Shown here in pieces: positions 45,094-52,259 of a DNA stretch of 64,000 nt. The translations under genes were made by a program, and so were the position numbers. The notes under the pieces were generated by a model, which saw nothing but the letters and a program-made list of their open reading frames with translations, made no database searches and had not been told where the DNA came from. Source of the DNA: an uncultured Paracoccaceae bacterium (lineage in GTDB: Bacteria > Pseudomonadota > Alphaproteobacteria > Rhodobacterales > Rhodobacteraceae); assembly GCA_947503935.1 (NCBI GenBank), contig CANNFR010000002.1, forward strand, positions 62,001 to 126,000, written 5' to 3'. Positions within the stretch are counted from its first letter, which is position 1. Each line of letters opens with the position of its first letter.

Positions 45094-45165
45094 GGGGCTG
45101 ACGCGGGGAACGATCGCCCCACATATCTCGTTGATCTGTCACCAATGACAACGGGAGTTATGTCA

Positions 45166-46368
45166 ATGCGCCTTCCCCTCGCAGCCTTCCTGCTTTCCGC
45201 CACCGCGGCCGTCGCACAAAGCGCCGCGCCGGTTGAGCAAGGACCGCGCAACGCGCCGTCGCTTGAGCCCGCATTCCCCGAGCAGACCCGGGCGCCAGCG
45301 GTTCAATCCGATGTCACGCTGACGACCACCGCTTTTGCCGAAGGGTTGGAGAACCCCTGGGGCATCGCGCCCCTGCCGAATGGCGGCTATTTGGTGACGG
45401 AGCGGCCCGGCCGGCTGCGGGTAATTTCGGCCGATGGGGCCGTGTCAGAGCCTGTTTCGGGCCTGCCCGAAATCCATGCAGTGCGTCAAGGCGGCCTTCT
45501 GGATGTGGCCGTCGGCCCGACCTTTGCGGATGACCGCATGATCTACTGGACCTATGCCAAACCGATGGGCGACGGGATGTCCGTCACCGCCGCGGCGCGG
45601 GGTGTTTTGTCGGATGACATGACCGAGCTCACCGAGGTGCAGGACATCTTCGTTCAGGACCCGCCTAGCTCGACCTCAATGCACTACGGCTCGCGGATCG
45701 TCTTTGACGCTGAAGGCTATGCGTTCATCACCACGGGCGAACATTCCGCCGTGGGAGAGCGTGAGAAGGCGCAGGACAATTCCACGACCTATGGCAAGGT
45801 GATCCGCGTCAATCCCGACGGCTCGGTGCCTGCGGACAATCCCTTTGTCGATGCAGACGGGATTGACACGATCTGGAGCTATGGCCACCGCAACATCCAA
45901 GGCGCGCTGATCCATCCGGAAACCGGCCAGCTTTGGACGATTGAACACGGGCCCGCCGGTGGGGATGAGTTGAACATACCGCAGGCCGGTCTGAACTATG
46001 GCTGGCCCGTCATCTCGTACGGCGTCAATTACAGCGGCAGCGATGTGGGCGAGGGAATCGCCGCGCAGGAGGGGATGGAGCAGCCCCGCTATTTCTGGGA
46101 CCCCGTCATCGCGCCTGGCGGCATGATCGTCTATCAGGGCGAGATGTTCCCCGAATGGCAGGGCGATGTGCTGATCGGCTCGCTGAACCCCGGCGCCTTG
46201 GTGCGCCTGACGATGGACGGCGATACAGTCACCGGCGAGGAGCGTTTGCTGACGGATGTCGGCCGCATCCGCGATGTGGAGGAAGCGGCCGACGGATCGC
46301 TTTTGGTGCTGATCGACAGCCCAAATGGCGCGGTGCTGCGCGTGACGCCGGAAGGCATGTCGAACTGA
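45166..46368 (+). CDS. PQQ-dependent aldose sugar dehydrogenase (soluble GDH family)
   Basis: A periplasmic six-bladed propeller that oxidises aldoses with pyrroloquinoline quinone and calcium. The 400-residue protein has a signal peptide (MRLPLAAFLLSATAAVAQ). Typical sequence elements are GLENPWGIAPLPNGGYLVTE, SMHYGSRIVFDAEGYAFITT (the His is the likely catalytic base), WSYGHRNIQGALIHPETG (Arg contacts the cofactor) and EHGPAGGDELN. The ATG at 45166 has GGGAG eight bases upstream; earlier in-frame ATGs are too close. No pqq synthesis gene is in the window. A hairpin terminator follows the gene. Confidence 0.88.
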   Translation: MRLPLAAFLLSATAAVAQSAAPVEQGPRNAPSLEPAFPEQTRAPAVQSDVTLTTTAFAEGLENPWGIAPLPNGGYLVTERPGRLRVISADGAVSEPVSGLPEIHAVRQGGLLDVAVGPTFADDRMIYWTYAKPMGDGMSVTAAARGVLSDDMTELTEVQDIFVQDPPSSTSMHYGSRIVFDAEGYAFITTGEHSAVGEREKAQDNSTTYGKVIRVNPDGSVPADNPFVDADGIDTIWSYGHRNIQGALIHPETGQLWTIEHGPAGGDELNIPQAGLNYGWPVISYGVNYSGSDVGEGIAAQEGMEQPRYFWDPVIAPGGMIVYQGEMFPEWQGDVLIGSLNPGALVRLTMDGDTVTGEERLLTDVGRIRDVEEAADGSLLVLIDSPNGAVLRVTPEGMSN

Positions 46369-47438: not shown

Positions 47439-47729
47439 ATGTGTCAGATCTTTGCGGGCCAACAATCTGAGGACTACGAGCCCATCACGCGGCATCTGCG
47501 GCTGAACGGGCAAAGCACCAGCATCCGGCTTGAGCAGGCGTTCTGGGAAATCGTCGATCAGATCGCCGAGGATGAGGGGCTCAGCACGCCCGCCTTCGTC
47601 TCACGCCTGCATTCGGAAGTGCTTGAATTAAAAGGCGAAGCGCGCAACTTCACCTCGCTTTTGCGCTGTGCCTGCCTGATCCGCCTGAGGCATGCGCCCC
47701 TCCACCCAGGCATGCTGGCGGCCGAGTGA
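47439..47729 (+). CDS. Ribbon-helix-helix protein
   Basis: A 96-residue protein with a short N-terminal MCQIFAGQQSEDYEPITRHLR and then the strand-helix-helix NGQSTSIRLEQAFWEIVDQIAEDEGLSTPAFVSRLHSEV (read as SIRLEQAFWEIVDQIA and STPAFVSRLHSEV; about 27-66). The CACLIRLRHAP tail follows. This is the RHH_4-type domain, common in alphaproteobacteria, likely DNA-binding, and often misnamed aryl-sulfate sulfotransferase. GGGAGGA lies seven bases before the ATG. It sits just upstream of the oxidation operon, of which it could be the regulator (inference). Confidence 0.75.
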   Translation: MCQIFAGQQSEDYEPITRHLRLNGQSTSIRLEQAFWEIVDQIAEDEGLSTPAFVSRLHSEVLELKGEARNFTSLLRCACLIRLRHAPLHPGMLAAE

Positions 47730-47828: not shown

Positions 47829-48227
47829 GTGGCCAGAGCGATTCACTCCATGATTCGCGTTCTGAACGAAGAACGCTCGGTAACATTCTATGAAAAAGCG
47901 TTTGGGCTGTCGGTGGCCGACCGGCTCGATTTCGACAGCTTCACGCTGGTCTACCTGTCGAATGCCGAGAACGATTTTGAGTTGGAGCTGACCATCAACA
48001 AGGACCAGACCGAGCCCTACGACCTGGGCAACGGCTACGGACACCTCGCCTTTTCGGTCGATGATCTGGACGCGGAACATGCACGCTTCGAGGCCGAAGG
48101 GCTGGCCCCGCGCAAGCTGGTGGCCTTCGCGCCGGATGGGGGCGAGCCCATCGCGCGGTTCTTCTTCGTCGCCGATCCCGACGGATACCAGATCGAAGTG
48201 CTCCAGCGGGGGGGCCGCTATCACTGA
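47829..48227 (+). CDS. VOC-family protein (glyoxalase I-like)
   Basis: A 132-residue vicinal-oxygen-chelate protein with the glyoxalase layout: a first module (AIHSMIRVLNEERSVTFYEKA) and a second module (GYGHLAFSVDDLDAEHARFEA). The metal ligands are His7, Glu53 in FELELT, His72 in GHLAF and Glu122 in YQIEVLQ. Glyoxalase I (methylglyoxal-glutathione) is the closest activity, but other VOC substrates are possible. The start is GTG with GGGGAGGGG upstream. It is the first gene of the 47.8-52.3 kb operon, so it may remove a reactive carbonyl made during sugar oxidation. Confidence 0.82.
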   Translation: MARAIHSMIRVLNEERSVTFYEKAFGLSVADRLDFDSFTLVYLSNAENDFELELTINKDQTEPYDLGNGYGHLAFSVDDLDAEHARFEAEGLAPRKLVAFAPDGGEPIARFFFVADPDGYQIEVLQRGGRYH

Positions 48228-48265
48228 CCCCGCCAACAAGCCAAGAAAAGCCAGGGAGGATACCA

Positions 48266-48790
48266 ATGACAGATGTGAAAGACCGAAAGGGCATGACGCG
48301 GCGCGAGCTGTTGTCGCGCAGCGTGGCGGCCGGGGGCGCCTTCGTGATCGGCGCAGGGTTCGTCGCCGGCAAGGACGCCGCCTGGGCGACCGAGATGAAC
48401 GCGCTGAAGCCGCAGAGCATGGCCACGCTGATCCAGATGGCGCGCGATATTTATCCGCACGACCACTTGGCCGACGAATATTACGTGATCGCCGTCAAGG
48501 GCTACGACGTGCCCGATATGGTGGATGAGACCGAGGCGGGCCTGCGCATGCTGGACGATGCAGCGCGCGGCAAGGGCTATGGCAGCTATCTGGATATCGG
48601 GTGGGAGCGTGACCGCGTCGACATCCTGCGCCAGATCGAGGACAGCGCGTTTTTCCAGAAGGTGCGCGGCGGGCTGGTGACGGGCCTTTATAACCAAAAG
48701 GCCGTCTGGCCGCTTTTCGGCTACGAGGGCGAAAGCTTCAGCCAAGGCGGCTACATCGACCGTGGCTTCAACGACATCAACTGGCTGTAA
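48266..48790 (+). CDS. Tat-exported small subunit of a GMC dehydrogenase (gluconate 2-dehydrogenase subunit 3-like)
   Basis: A 174-residue protein with a twin-arginine signal peptide (GMTRRELLSRS at about 9-19, then a hydrophobic stretch ending AAWATE near 42). The mature part (MATLIQMARDIYPHDHLADEYY; GWERDRVDILRQIEDSAFFQKVR) resembles the small gamma subunit of FAD-dependent glucose, fructose or gluconate dehydrogenases. In that family the small subunit carries the signal and escorts the signal-less large subunit through Tat. The next gene encodes just such a large subunit. CAGGGAGGA lies about six bases before the ATG. Confidence 0.83.
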   Translation: MTDVKDRKGMTRRELLSRSVAAGGAFVIGAGFVAGKDAAWATEMNALKPQSMATLIQMARDIYPHDHLADEYYVIAVKGYDVPDMVDETEAGLRMLDDAARGKGYGSYLDIGWERDRVDILRQIEDSAFFQKVRGGLVTGLYNQKAVWPLFGYEGESFSQGGYIDRGFNDINWL

Positions 48791-48805
48791 GGGAGGGCGG
48801 TAAAG

Positions 48806-50377
48806 ATGGCTGCACCATTTGAACTATCCGACGACAGCGTGGTTGTCGTGATCGGAACCGGCGCCGGGGGCGGGGTTTTGGCGAATGAACTGGCCCAGAA
48901 GGGCATCAGCGTCGTAGCGCTGGAGGCCGGCGGGCGATATCTGCCTGATGACTACGTCAATGATGAATGGGAGAGCTTCGGCCAGCTGGCCTGGCTGGAT
49001 GCGCGCACGACCAGCGGCGACTGGCGCGTGGCCAAGGATTTCTCGGGCCTTCCGGCCTGGATCGTGAAGGCCGTGGGCGGCACGACCACCCATTGGGCGG
49101 GCGCCTCAATCCGGTTTCAGGACCACGAGTGGAAGGCCAGCACGACCTATGGCAACGTGCAGGGCGCCAACCTTCTGGACTGGCCCATCGACGGGGCCGA
49201 GATGGCGCCTTGGTACGAGCTGGCCGAGGAAAAACTGGGCGTCACCCGGACCGGCGGGCGCGAGGGGCTGCCCGGCTGCAACAACTACCTGGTGTTCGAA
49301 AAGGGTGCCAAGGCGCTGGGCTATACCGAAGTGCATACCGGCCGCATGGCCATCAACTCGGCCGATTACGATGGCCGCCCGGCCTGCCAGCAGACCGGTT
49401 TTTGCTTTCAGGGCTGCAAATGGGGCGCCAAGTGGTCGGCCGCCTATACCGACATCCCGAAAGGCGAGGCGACCGGCAACCTCGAGGTGCGCGAGCGCGC
49501 CCATGTCGCGCGTGTTCTGCACGACGACAGCGGCAAGGTGACCGGCGTCGAATATTTCGACGCGGACGGCAACCTGCAATTCCAGGCGGCCCGCGTGGTC
49601 TGCGTGGCGGGGAACTCGTTCGAAAGCCCGCGCCTCTTGCTGAACTCGGCGTCGGCCATGTTCCCCGACGGGCTCGCCAATTCCTCGGGCCAGGTCGGGC
49701 GCAATTACATGCGCCACATGACCGGGTCGGTCTACGCCGTCTTCGACAAGCCGGTGAAGATGTGGCGCGGCACGACGATGGCCGGGATCATCCAGGACGA
49801 GTCGAAGCACGATCCGTCGCGCGGCTTTGTCGGCGGCTATGAGCTTGAGACGCTCAGCCTGGGCCTGCCCTTCATGGCCGCCTTCCTCGACCCCGGCGGT
49901 TGGGGGCGCGAGTTCACCACGGCGCTGGATGCCTACGAGAACATGGCCGGCATGTGGATTGTGGGCGAGGATATGCCACAGGAGACGAACCGCGTGACGC
50001 TGAACGCGGATGTGACCGACCAATACGGCCTGCCGGTGCCCAACGTGCATTTCGACGATCACCCCAACGACATCGCGATGCGCAATCACGCCTACAAGCA
50101 GGGCATGGCGGTCTACGATGCGGTGGGCGCGACGCGGACCTTTCCGACGCCGCCCTACCCAAGCACCCATAACCTCGGCACCAACCGGATGTCCGAGAAC
50201 CCGAGGGACGGTGTGGTCAACAAGTGGGGCCAGACCCACGACATCGCAAACCTCTTCGTCTCGGACGGGTCAGTGTTCACCACCGGGGGCGCCGAGAACC
50301 CGACGCTGACGATCGTGGCACTGGCCATCCGTCAGGCCGACCACATCGCGGGCGAAATGGGCCGGGGGACCCTCTGA
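48806..50377 (+). CDS. GMC-family FAD dehydrogenase, large subunit
   Basis: A 523-residue FAD-dependent oxidoreductase. The dinucleotide motif is VVVIGTGAGGGVLANEL (about 12-28), with LEAGGRYLP next and GGTTTHWAGAS at about 91-101. C194-x5-C200-x3-C204 (CQQTGFCFQGC) resembles the cysteine set that binds a 3Fe-4S cluster in bacterial FAD-glucose and fructose dehydrogenases. The C-terminal catalytic part has HNLGTNRMSENP, LFVSDGSVF and ENPTLTIVAL. It has no signal peptide, fitting hitch-hiker export with the preceding Tat subunit. Likely oxidation of a sugar, polyol or sugar acid in the periplasm; the substrate is unknown. Confidence 0.87.
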   Translation: MAAPFELSDDSVVVVIGTGAGGGVLANELAQKGISVVALEAGGRYLPDDYVNDEWESFGQLAWLDARTTSGDWRVAKDFSGLPAWIVKAVGGTTTHWAGASIRFQDHEWKASTTYGNVQGANLLDWPIDGAEMAPWYELAEEKLGVTRTGGREGLPGCNNYLVFEKGAKALGYTEVHTGRMAINSADYDGRPACQQTGFCFQGCKWGAKWSAAYTDIPKGEATGNLEVRERAHVARVLHDDSGKVTGVEYFDADGNLQFQAARVVCVAGNSFESPRLLLNSASAMFPDGLANSSGQVGRNYMRHMTGSVYAVFDKPVKMWRGTTMAGIIQDESKHDPSRGFVGGYELETLSLGLPFMAAFLDPGGWGREFTTALDAYENMAGMWIVGEDMPQETNRVTLNADVTDQYGLPVPNVHFDDHPNDIAMRNHAYKQGMAVYDAVGATRTFPTPPYPSTHNLGTNRMSENPRDGVVNKWGQTHDIANLFVSDGSVFTTGGAENPTLTIVALAIRQADHIAGEMGRGTL

Positions 50378-50436
50378 TATTTCAAAAACTGCGGGGGCCG
50401 CCCAAGGCCCTCGCTCATCACGTAGGGAGGAAGATC

Positions 50437-51693
50437 ATGAAAAGACTGCTGCTTTCCATCGCACCTCTGGCGCTGACGGCCGCTGCGGCCCAAGCGCAGG
50501 ACAACCTCGAGACGCTGCAAAACATGCAGCGCACCGATGCGACCTTCACCGAGATCGCCCAAGACGGCGAGCGTGCCGATGCTCTTCGCGAGATCCTGCA
50601 ATACATCAACGTGCCCGATGGGTTTGAGGTCAGCCTCTACGCCGTTGTGCCCGATGCGCGGTCGATGGCCGTGGCGCCGCAAGGCACCGTCACCTTTGTC
50701 GGCACCCGCAAGGATAAGGTCTGGTCAGTCGTTGATCGTGACCGCAATCGAGTCGCCGATCAGGTAATGGATTTCGCCCCCTCGATCACCTTCGACATCC
50801 CGAATGGCCCCTGCTTCTCGCGCGACGGGTTCCTCTACATCGCCGAGCGCAACCGCGTGCTGCAATTCCCCGCGGCCGAGTTCTTCTTCGAAGGGCCCGA
50901 CCCGGCGGTAGGTGTCGTCGTGGCCCAGGGCGAGCTGGTCCCGGCAGAAGAAGAAAGCTTCAACCACACCGCGCGGGTCTGCCGCATCGGGCCTGACGGC
51001 AAGCTCTACATCTCGCTCGGCCAGCCGTTTAACGTGCAACCTGTTGAAAAGCATGAAATGTACGATGAGATCGGCATCGGCGGCATCATCCGCATGAACA
51101 CTGACGGGTCCGAGCGCGAGGTCTTCACCCGCGGCATCCGCAACTCGGTCGGGCATGATTTCAACCCCGCCAATGGCGATCTCTGGTTCACCGACAATCA
51201 GGTCGACGGCATGGGCGATGATATCCCGCCGGGCGAGCTGAACCGCCAGACCGCCGCCGGCCAGCATTTCGGTTTTCCTTGGACCAACGCGCGGGTCGAA
51301 ATGCCCGATTACAGATCCGTTCCCCGCCCCGAAGGCGTGGAATTCATCGAACCGCAGGTCGAGATGGTTGCCCATGCCGCCGATCTGGGCATGAGCTTTT
51401 ACTCCGGCAGCTCGTTCCCAGAGGAATATCGCGGCGGCATCTTCTCGGCCCAACACGGCTCGTGGAATCGCACCACGCCGGTGGGCGCCCGGGTGATGTT
51501 CACCGCGCTCGACGAAGAGGGGAACGCGGCAGAAACGATGGTCTTCGCCGACGGTTGGCTGAACGAGGAAACCGGCGAATATCGCGGCCGCCCGATGGAT
51601 ATCGCCTTCTTGGCCGACGGCTCGATGCTGGTCTCGGACGATTTCGCCGGCGCGATCTGGCGCATCGCTTACAATCCGGCCCCCGCTGAATGA
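50437..51693 (+). CDS. PQQ-type (sorbosone dehydrogenase-like) periplasmic dehydrogenase
   Basis: A 418-residue beta-propeller with a signal peptide (MKRLLLSIAPLALTAAAAQAQ). Characteristic stretches are YINVPDGFEVSLYAVVPDAR, GTVTFVGTRKDKVWSV, GIRNSVGHDFNPANGDLWFTD (Arg and His near the cofactor site; read as GIRNSVGHDF and NGDLWFTDN) and HGSWNRTTPVGARVMF. This is the L-sorbosone dehydrogenase family, related to but distinct from the enzyme at 45.2 kb. GGGAGG lies seven bases before the ATG. The cytochrome c gene overlaps its stop, suggesting electron transfer to that cytochrome. Confidence 0.86.
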   Translation: MKRLLLSIAPLALTAAAAQAQDNLETLQNMQRTDATFTEIAQDGERADALREILQYINVPDGFEVSLYAVVPDARSMAVAPQGTVTFVGTRKDKVWSVVDRDRNRVADQVMDFAPSITFDIPNGPCFSRDGFLYIAERNRVLQFPAAEFFFEGPDPAVGVVVAQGELVPAEEESFNHTARVCRIGPDGKLYISLGQPFNVQPVEKHEMYDEIGIGGIIRMNTDGSEREVFTRGIRNSVGHDFNPANGDLWFTDNQVDGMGDDIPPGELNRQTAAGQHFGFPWTNARVEMPDYRSVPRPEGVEFIEPQVEMVAHAADLGMSFYSGSSFPEEYRGGIFSAQHGSWNRTTPVGARVMFTALDEEGNAAETMVFADGWLNEETGEYRGRPMDIAFLADGSMLVSDDFAGAIWRIAYNPAPAE

Positions 51694-52259
51694 AGGCGAT
51701 CATACTTCTGGCTCTCGGCGGGGTATTCCTCGCCGGGGCCGCTTTTGCCGAGGGCGACCGGGCCGAGGGCCGCAAGCTGGCCGGCCAATGCCGCACCTGC
51801 CACGGGCTGGACGGCTATGCCCAGATCCCCATCGCGCCGCATATCGGGGGCGAGCCTGAGGACTACCTGATCAACCAGCTGACCGCCTTCCGCGATGGCA
51901 CGCGCGAGCACGAGATGATGACGATCGTGGCGAAGACCCTCACCGATCAGCAGATCGCCGACCTCGCCGCCTGGTATGCGGGCCACACGGCCACCGTCAC
52001 CCTTTCTGCCGACCCGGGCGATGCACCCGAGGACTGTGTCGCCTGCCACGGCGCCGACGGCATCGCGCTGATCCCCATGGCGCCCAACCTTGCGGGCGAG
52101 ACCAACATCTACATCGACACCCAGCTAAAGGCCTTCCGCAATGGCAAGCGGGTGAACGAGATCATGACCCCCATCGCCGCCGGGATGACCGACACCGAAA
52201 TCCGCGCAGCCGCGGATTGGTATGCGGAGGTCGGCCTGGAGGTGGAACTGGTGGAGTAG
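51690..52259 (+). CDS. Diheme c-type cytochrome
   Basis: A 189-residue exported cytochrome with signal peptide MKAIILLALGGVFLAGAAFA and two class I heme sites, C34-RT-C37-H38 and C116-VA-C119-H120. Each is followed about 40 residues later by a Met that could be the sixth ligand (EHEMMTIVAK; NEIMTPIAAGM). The two halves are internal repeats. The start overlaps the dehydrogenase stop (ATGA). It is the last gene of the operon and the probable electron acceptor of both dehydrogenases. The A+T-rich accessory patch begins right behind it. Confidence 0.9.
   Translation: MKAIILLALGGVFLAGAAFAEGDRAEGRKLAGQCRTCHGLDGYAQIPIAPHIGGEPEDYLINQLTAFRDGTREHEMMTIVAKTLTDQQIADLAAWYAGHTATVTLSADPGDAPEDCVACHGADGIALIPMAPNLAGETNIYIDTQLKAFRNGKRVNEIMTPIAAGMTDTEIRAAADWYAEVGLEVELVE

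Follow-up and report, generated by a model that had tools for sequence, protein, structure and literature searches.

The present study concerns a group of genes with a probable role in periplasmic oxidation in a 64,000-nt stretch of contig CANNFR010000002.1 from an uncultured Paracoccaceae bacterium; this whole stretch is referred to as the window, and coordinates are window positions throughout. As described in an earlier reading made from the letters alone (the sequence-only reading), five genes lie in one direction on the plus strand, and encode a VOC protein, a small subunit with a twin-arginine translocation (Tat) signal, a GMC dehydrogenase with flavin adenine dinucleotide (FAD), a propeller resembling dehydrogenases that depend on pyrroloquinoline quinone (PQQ), and a diheme cytochrome c (Table 1). 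The distances between consecutive genes are 38, 15, 59, and -4 bases. The range assigned in that reading omitted a ribbon-helix-helix (RHH) gene; 49 of the 51 close loci defined below have this gene upstream, in the same orientation.

Table 1. Genes and motif of the probable oxidation locus, in window positions
Feature	Position	Strand	Details
Ribbon-helix-helix protein of the RHH_4 family, probably a regulator or partner of the module	47439..47729	+	PF13467, 82.7 bits
VOC protein resembling short bacterial glyoxalase I	47829..48227	+	132 aa, GTG start; PF00903
Tat-signal small subunit of GMC dehydrogenase (Gluconate_2-dh3 / FAD-SLDH-like)	48266..48790	+	174 aa, RR motif TRRELL
Catalytic GMC subunit with FAD, 3Fe-4S type; proposed to oxidize acetol to methylglyoxal	48806..50377	+	523 aa; GMC_oxred N and C
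C-x5-C-x3-C cluster motif, Cys194/Cys200/Cys204	49385..49417	+	within GMC gene
Propeller, AA12-like PQQ dehydrogenase	50437..51693	+	418 aa; GSDH 48.8 bits; homologues annotated PQQ-dependent sugar dehydrogenase
Diheme cytochrome c, propeller partner	51690..52259	+	189 aa; Cytochrom_C + Cytochrome_CBB3, two CxxCH

The RHH gene and the five genes probably form one transcription unit. A scan for promoters and terminators returned counts similar to those in shuffled sequences (1 versus 1.3; 5 versus 3.4) and placed no terminator-like site in the gap between the GMC and propeller genes. The propeller and cytochrome begin with Sec-type leader peptides, as judged by eye; the GMC protein has no evident signal peptide and the VOC protein has none. 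The GMC subunit is probably exported by riding with the Tat small subunit, and the VOC protein is presumably cytoplasmic.

Two modules across the Rhodobacterales

The distribution of these genes was investigated in 244 genomes of the order Rhodobacterales, with loci being counted by tblastn. The 51 loci regarded as close, the window included, encode GMC proteins with 81-100% identity to that of the window, and one GMC gene split by a frame change (G048) was kept among them. The VOC and small-subunit genes were located upstream of the GMC gene in all 51 loci, an arrangement beyond chance, and these three genes are hereafter called the trio, which was present in 51 of the 244 sampled genomes and, with another glyoxalase, in two 1.2-Mb genomes. 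No VOC gene was seen in three distant GMC loci at 53-57% identity. The propeller followed the GMC gene within 4 kb in only 10 of the 51 loci, the window included; the GMC gene and the start of the propeller match were separated by 57-152 bases in nine of these and by 571 in the tenth.

At a threshold of at least 60% identity, 36 of the 244 genomes carried the propeller; a copy with 40% identity in G164 (L105) was not counted among them. A homologue of the diheme cytochrome was encoded in the stretch fetched around the propeller in 35 of the 36, and the pair was located away from the GMC gene in 26, at a distance of approximately 13 kb in one of them. Conservation thus extends over RHH-VOC-small subunit-GMC as a unit, and the propeller and cytochrome are a second, separate pair that mostly occurs elsewhere. 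Inconsistent co-occurrence in relatives, named in the sequence-only reading as a result that would speak against it, was observed for the five-gene set and not for the trio: a single conserved five-gene operon was ruled out by the 10 of 51 loci in which the propeller adjoins the GMC gene.

In annotated records, the trio appears as a VOC family protein, a hypothetical or Tat-signal protein, and a GMC family oxidoreductase; an RHH gene was also annotated near it in Paracoccus sanguinis, P. denitrificans, Shinella, Methylocella, Caballeronia, Bradyrhizobium, and Thioclava. The P. sanguinis locus (L133) has an annotated IS110 transposase between the GMC gene and the propeller, the match to which starts only at residue 40, with no gene annotated there. 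At L104 (G047), upstream neighbors like those of the window (clusters c55 and c56, EamA) are followed by a clade-B propeller (see below) and cytochrome, with no RHH, VOC, small-subunit, or GMC gene between these neighbors and the propeller.

The trio and its proposed substrate

The trio has a counterpart in the methane-oxidizing bacterium Methylocella. The window GMC protein was 70.6% identical to that of M. tundrae over 523 aa (776 bits, tblastn), and identities were 63% for the VOC protein, 51% for the RHH protein, and 49% for the small subunit. The M. tundrae plasmid cluster comprises a diiron monooxygenase alpha subunit, reductase, beta subunit, and MmoB, an unannotated gap with a 387-aa open frame, and then a sigma-54 regulator, RHH, cytochrome c, VOC, small subunit, and GMC. 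Counting one gene in the gap, this order agrees gene by gene with the published numbering in M. silvestris, in which Msil_1649-1651 are assigned to propane monooxygenase, Msil_1643 to a putative lactoylglutathione lyase, and Msil_1641 to the GMC protein (PMC7364539). According to the same source, cells with a deletion of Msil_1641 grew more slowly on propane, accumulated acetol, and no longer grew on acetone or 2-propanol (PMC7364539). The RHH, VOC, small-subunit, and GMC genes are in identical order in the window and in Methylocella, whereas the Methylocella cluster has a monoheme cytochrome between the RHH and VOC genes and a diiron monooxygenase nearby, neither of which is present in the window, where a propeller and diheme cytochrome follow the GMC gene.

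A soluble diiron monooxygenase also neighbors the trio in Azospirillum B510, A. thermophilum, Bradyrhizobium CB82, and Skermanella, the last of which has its VOC gene after the GMC gene; G269 has the small subunit and GMC gene near such an enzyme without a VOC match. In P. denitrificans, Shinella, Caballeronia NK8, and Thioclava, the stretch shown contained the trio without a soluble diiron monooxygenase. Across the order, this enzyme (PF02332) occurred in 7 of 244 genomes and the window's own genome had no match, and a propane route in this organism was ruled out on these grounds.

A similar arrangement has been described for verrucomicrobial methanotrophs in the three-carbon (C3) cluster of Methylacidiphilum (IT6_09380-09390; Mfumv2_1600-1612), which we liken to the trio from the published description: it contains gmcA and gmcB, for the GMC large and small subunits, and a lactoylglutathione lyase, for which a path from acetol via methylglyoxal to lactate was proposed, and in strain SolV it was upregulated 20-330-fold on acetone or 2-propanol (PMC8630023, PMC12235487). 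In contrast to the window, it carries pmoCAB3 and a lactate dehydrogenase, and the parts of these reports that were available name no PQQ propeller in it.

The likeness of the VOC protein to glyoxalase I extends to individual residues. It aligned with E. coli glyoxalase I (1f9z) and has His6, Glu53, His72, and Glu123 at the positions that we take to be metal ligands; all four were present in 77 of 78 loci, the window included, and the remaining alignment ends early. In two 1.2-Mb genomes with 32% GC (G340 and G614, presumed from size and composition to be SAR11-like or Pelagibacterales), the VOC slot is held by a distinct protein with 34% identity to the window VOC protein; the G340 copy, which was the one scanned, matched the lactoylglutathione lyase model TIGR00068 with 191.4 bits against a cut-off of 120. 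The compact clusters of these genomes (L151 and L152) consist of this glyoxalase I followed by a monoheme cytochrome, the small subunit, and the GMC gene. The presence of two different glyoxalase-like proteins in one slot points to a 2-oxoaldehyde product, and the suggestion in the sequence-only reading that the VOC enzyme deals with a reactive carbonyl is supported by the glyoxalase-I ligands.

Among solved structures, the best relatives of the GMC protein were fructose dehydrogenase 7w2j and glucose dehydrogenase 6a2u (phmmer, 174 bits, E 5e-50). The FAD/GMC large subunit with a Tat-borne partner and a C-x5-C-x3-C motif, as noted from the letters alone, was borne out as a GMC enzyme of the FAD/iron-sulfur (Fe-S) type, the Cys194, Cys200, and Cys204 of which align with cysteines of the fructose dehydrogenase large subunit and are all present in 72 of 75 loci, the window included. 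The membrane-bound fructose dehydrogenase and the FAD-glucose dehydrogenase thus have the GMC family, this motif, and a Tat-type small subunit in common with the window; a triheme cytochrome subunit is presumably a further feature of theirs, and the window operon has none, its only cytochrome being the diheme protein that belongs with the propeller. All three cysteines are gone in L149, L144, and L071 (Thioclava, Arthrobacter, and G065, respectively; GMC proteins 53-63% identical), an apparent loss of the Fe-S cluster, and a His/Asn pair that we take to be catalytic is kept in them. The small subunit had no Pfam match of its own; among 16 aligned homologues, 9 gave weak matches to PF13618 (best E 0.0039) and 2 gave weak matches to PF12318 (best E 0.0013), and the best hits to solved structures (E 0.12 alone, 0.064 with a profile) were taken as chance. 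Its M. tundrae homologue is annotated as a gluconate 2-dehydrogenase subunit 3 family protein. In a quick tree, the GMC family was set apart from an outgroup with 36% identity. Two tandem arrays (L160 and L161), one with five GMC genes and the other with four, occur in the 2.1-Mb genome of G362; these related genes show 55-58% identity to the GMC gene of the window.

These structural relatives raise the possibility of a sugar route, in which the GMC enzyme oxidizes a ketose or polyol and the propeller oxidizes the resulting osone, as from sorbose via sorbosone to 2-keto-gulonate. The propeller is also AA12/GSDH-like, families known for sugars, and the chemistry would be identical (CO-CH2OH to CO-CHO to CO-COOH); however, the 174 bits to the sugar enzymes (phmmer) are far below the 776 bits to the Methylocella protein (tblastn), the presence of a glyoxalase-like gene in the trio is in keeping with methylglyoxal, and it is acetol that the Methylocella mutant accumulates (PMC7364539). 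A sorbose-type substrate, which we considered first, was made unlikely by the Methylocella match, and we regard the sugar route as quite improbable. The sorbitol-sorbose-sorbosone scheme of the sequence-only reading gives way to a correspondence of the trio with the acetol unit of Methylocella; its logic of alcohol to aldehyde to acid remains plausible, with a C3 ketol as the probable substrate instead of a sugar.

Another small alcohol or ketol, such as 2-propanol, glycolaldehyde, or dihydroxyacetone, may be the substrate, with the glyoxalase acting on another 2-oxoaldehyde, e.g. glyoxal. The oxidation of 2-propanol was proposed for the Methylacidiphilum GMC protein (PMC8630023), and the scarcity of soluble diiron monooxygenases in the order and their absence from the window's own genome are in line with this view. 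Nevertheless, growth and respiration data in a later report argued against a dual function as unlikely (PMC12235487), and acetol itself accumulates in the Methylocella deletion strain (PMC7364539), such that we consider this alternative to be unlikely. The match of the trio to Methylocella, the phenotype of Msil_1641, the glyoxalase-I ligands, and the glyoxalase I in the slot of G340 together suggest that the GMC enzyme most likely oxidizes acetol to methylglyoxal, not a sugar.

The propeller pair and its link to the trio

The assignment of the propeller to PQQ-type dehydrogenases, as made in the sequence-only reading, is supported by its residues. In Pfam, it matched GSDH with 48.8 bits and TrAA12 with 21.1 bits, below the cut-off of 30.9, and a profile built from 17 propeller homologues found E. 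coli Asd (2g8s) and the AA12 chains 6jt5 and 6i1q at E values between 1e-4 and 1e-3. Contacts to PQQ and calcium are given for CcPDH and TrAA12 in two structural reports (PMC6881789, PMC6881810), and profile alignments matched these to Arg235-Asn236, Asp257 (calcium), His313, and the loop His340-Gly-Ser-Trp343-Asn344; Arg75, His177 (base), and Arg385 were placed by eye. All these positions were invariant in the 17 aligned homologues. The propeller shares these residues, the HGSWN loop included, with the AA12 pyranose dehydrogenases CcPDH and TrAA12 and with E. coli Asd; unlike the pyranose dehydrogenases, it has no cytochrome b domain and is accompanied by a separate diheme cytochrome c. A scan of viral contigs for propeller relatives returned 21 stretches that matched a pattern, none of which encodes a relative.

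The supply of the cofactor was examined through genes for PQQ synthesis. PqqE was present in 22 of 36 genomes with the propeller versus 36 of 208 without it (p 1.7e-7). The sequence-only reading had looked to pqq genes elsewhere in the genome and had named a lack of PQQ synthesis as telling against it, and such a lack is what was found: the best PqqE match in the window's own genome scored 47.6 of 381 bits, and PqqC was absent, the PqqC model having matched in five of five pqqE-positive genomes. A further 13 propeller genomes are also without PqqE. Any PQQ in the window organism must therefore be scavenged; E. coli has a PQQ enzyme without making PQQ (PMC6881810). Synthesis by the host is not a strict requirement, since E. 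coli scavenges the cofactor.

A propeller tree placed 19 propellers, including that of the window, in clade A (support 100/100; the bootstrap had not settled). The pair lies beside pqqB, pqqC, and pqqE in 3 of 19 clade-A genomes (G111, G175, and G031; PqqB and PqqC were scanned in G175, and the others were assigned by cluster and by PqqE/PqqC genome searches), and in two of these genomes the genes next in line belong to a PQQ-alcohol-dehydrogenase transport system (scanned in G111). TRAP transporter genes are adjacent or close in 5 of 19 (G065, G172, G199, and G059 by family scans, G187 by cluster). An enzyme producing an acid in the periplasm would fit both of these settings. The role of the propeller is likely periplasmic oxidation from aldehyde to acid, perhaps from methylglyoxal to pyruvate.

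Tests of co-occurrence counted 54 GMC carriers, consisting of the 51 close loci plus the three at 53-57% identity, and corrected only partly for relatedness. GMC was present in 23 of 36 propeller genomes versus 31 of 208 others (p 3.4e-9) and, by genus, in 16 of 20 with the propeller versus 11 of 80 without it (p 2.7e-8). It was found in 15 of 17 clade-B genomes (p 2.6e-9), and a count by genus for clade A gave 8 of 10 versus 19 of 90 (p 3.6e-4). The GMC-adjacent propellers do not form one clade (4-5 changes; AU p 2.4e-6, from a quick tree and with the group named after the first tree), which implies either a repeated formation of the junction or a replacement of the propeller in place. No clade-A propeller other than that of the window adjoins a GMC gene, and the junction in the window is thus separate from the others or arose by such a replacement.

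The propeller pair may alternatively be a mere neighbor of the acetol unit, with another aldehyde or an aldose as its substrate. Its location away from the GMC gene in 26 of 36 genomes, the pqq or TRAP neighborhoods of 8 of 19 clade-A genomes, and the lack of PqqE (over the cut-off) and PqqC in the window organism agree with this. On the other hand, co-occurrence by genome and genus (relatedness only partly corrected), the frequency of GMC in clade B, the repeated junction or in-place replacement indicated by the quick tree, and the narrow spacing in nine of ten adjacent loci argue for a connection, and we regard a mere neighborhood as rather doubtful. The likelihoods that we attach to this and the other alternatives overlap and are not meant to add up to unity.

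Proposed route and its implications

Taken together, we consider it reasonably probable that the locus consists of an acetol unit and a separate PQQ-type pair. This reading is built on gene content, conservation, family likeness, individual residues, and a gene order shared with the deletion-tested Methylocella cluster. The following scheme is inferred with respect to the substrate in the window organism, the electron path, the location in the cell, and all that concerns catalysis by the propeller. The Tat small subunit would carry the GMC enzyme to the periplasm, where the CH2OH group of acetol (hydroxyacetone) would be oxidized to the aldehyde of methylglyoxal, with electrons passing from FAD via the 3Fe-4S cluster to a c-type cytochrome. 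Methylglyoxal entering the cytoplasm would be directed towards D-lactate by the VOC glyoxalase I. The propeller and diheme cytochrome would be an addition at this locus, namely a separate periplasmic dehydrogenase that depends on PQQ and has an electron acceptor of its own, and would most probably convert an aldehyde to an acid using scavenged PQQ, methylglyoxal to pyruvate being the best candidate.

Several points weigh against this reading. On the side of the trio, the orthology with Methylocella rests on the M. tundrae gene order and published M. silvestris locus numbers, and the evidence there is a mutant phenotype and not a purified enzyme, the authors having assumed NADH production (PMC7364539). 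The quick GMC tree puts the monooxygenase-linked copies outside the Rhodobacterales rows, and the tested Methylocella enzyme is thus a relative within the family and not a near sister; moreover, the window's own genome has no Phenol_Hydrox (PF02332) monooxygenase. The loss of cysteines in three GMC relatives at 53-63% identity means that function may vary across the wider family. The VOC protein scored below curated cut-offs (123.3 of 165 bits for NF050074 GloA and 73.1 of 120 for TIGR00068), and another glyoxalase-I-like gene, at a different place in the genome, scored higher (92 versus 72 bits), also below the cut-off. Regarding the propeller, PqqE over the cut-off and PqqC are missing from the genome, the association between GMC and clade A, the window's kind, is only weak when counted by genome (8 of 19, p 0.035), and a single-sequence structure model with a mean predicted local distance difference test score of 31.8 was discarded as useless.

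A more far-reaching possibility, which we hold only tentatively, is a C3 version of the sorbose-sorbosone route that would run entirely in the periplasm: acetol would be converted to methylglyoxal by the GMC enzyme and then to pyruvate by the AA12-like quinoprotein and diheme cytochrome, with glyoxalase I as a cytoplasmic back-up and the quinoprotein pair having apparently been joined more than once. Toxic methylglyoxal would then not need to enter the cell. If the propeller oxidizes methylglyoxal, this would represent a PQQ route for that compound, none of which was found among the titles and abstract openings searched; no publication on the combination of the GMC trio with a PQQ propeller was found in the open-access literature, most subscription journals being outside the scope of that search. 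Tying the trio to acetol and methylglyoxal would provide a gene marker for the use of acetone-derived carbon. In a 2014 report, acetone-consuming seawater microbes and their enzymes were described as unknown, and low-nucleic-acid bacteria such as SAR11 were suggested (PMC4033308).

Other features lie close to the locus. A canonical GSDH gene (Asd-like, 431 bits) is located at 45145-46368, 1.5 kb 5' of the VOC gene, and the interval contains EamA and RHH genes; besides this GSDH gene, the only GSDH match in the window's own genome is the propeller itself (43 bits). A GntR-like regulator (by eye, cluster c8) lies upstream on the opposite strand in several relatives. Between 47740 and 47830, upstream of the VOC gene, the inverted repeats GTAGTA..TACTAC and TTGGT..ACCAA were recognized by eye and represent possible operators.

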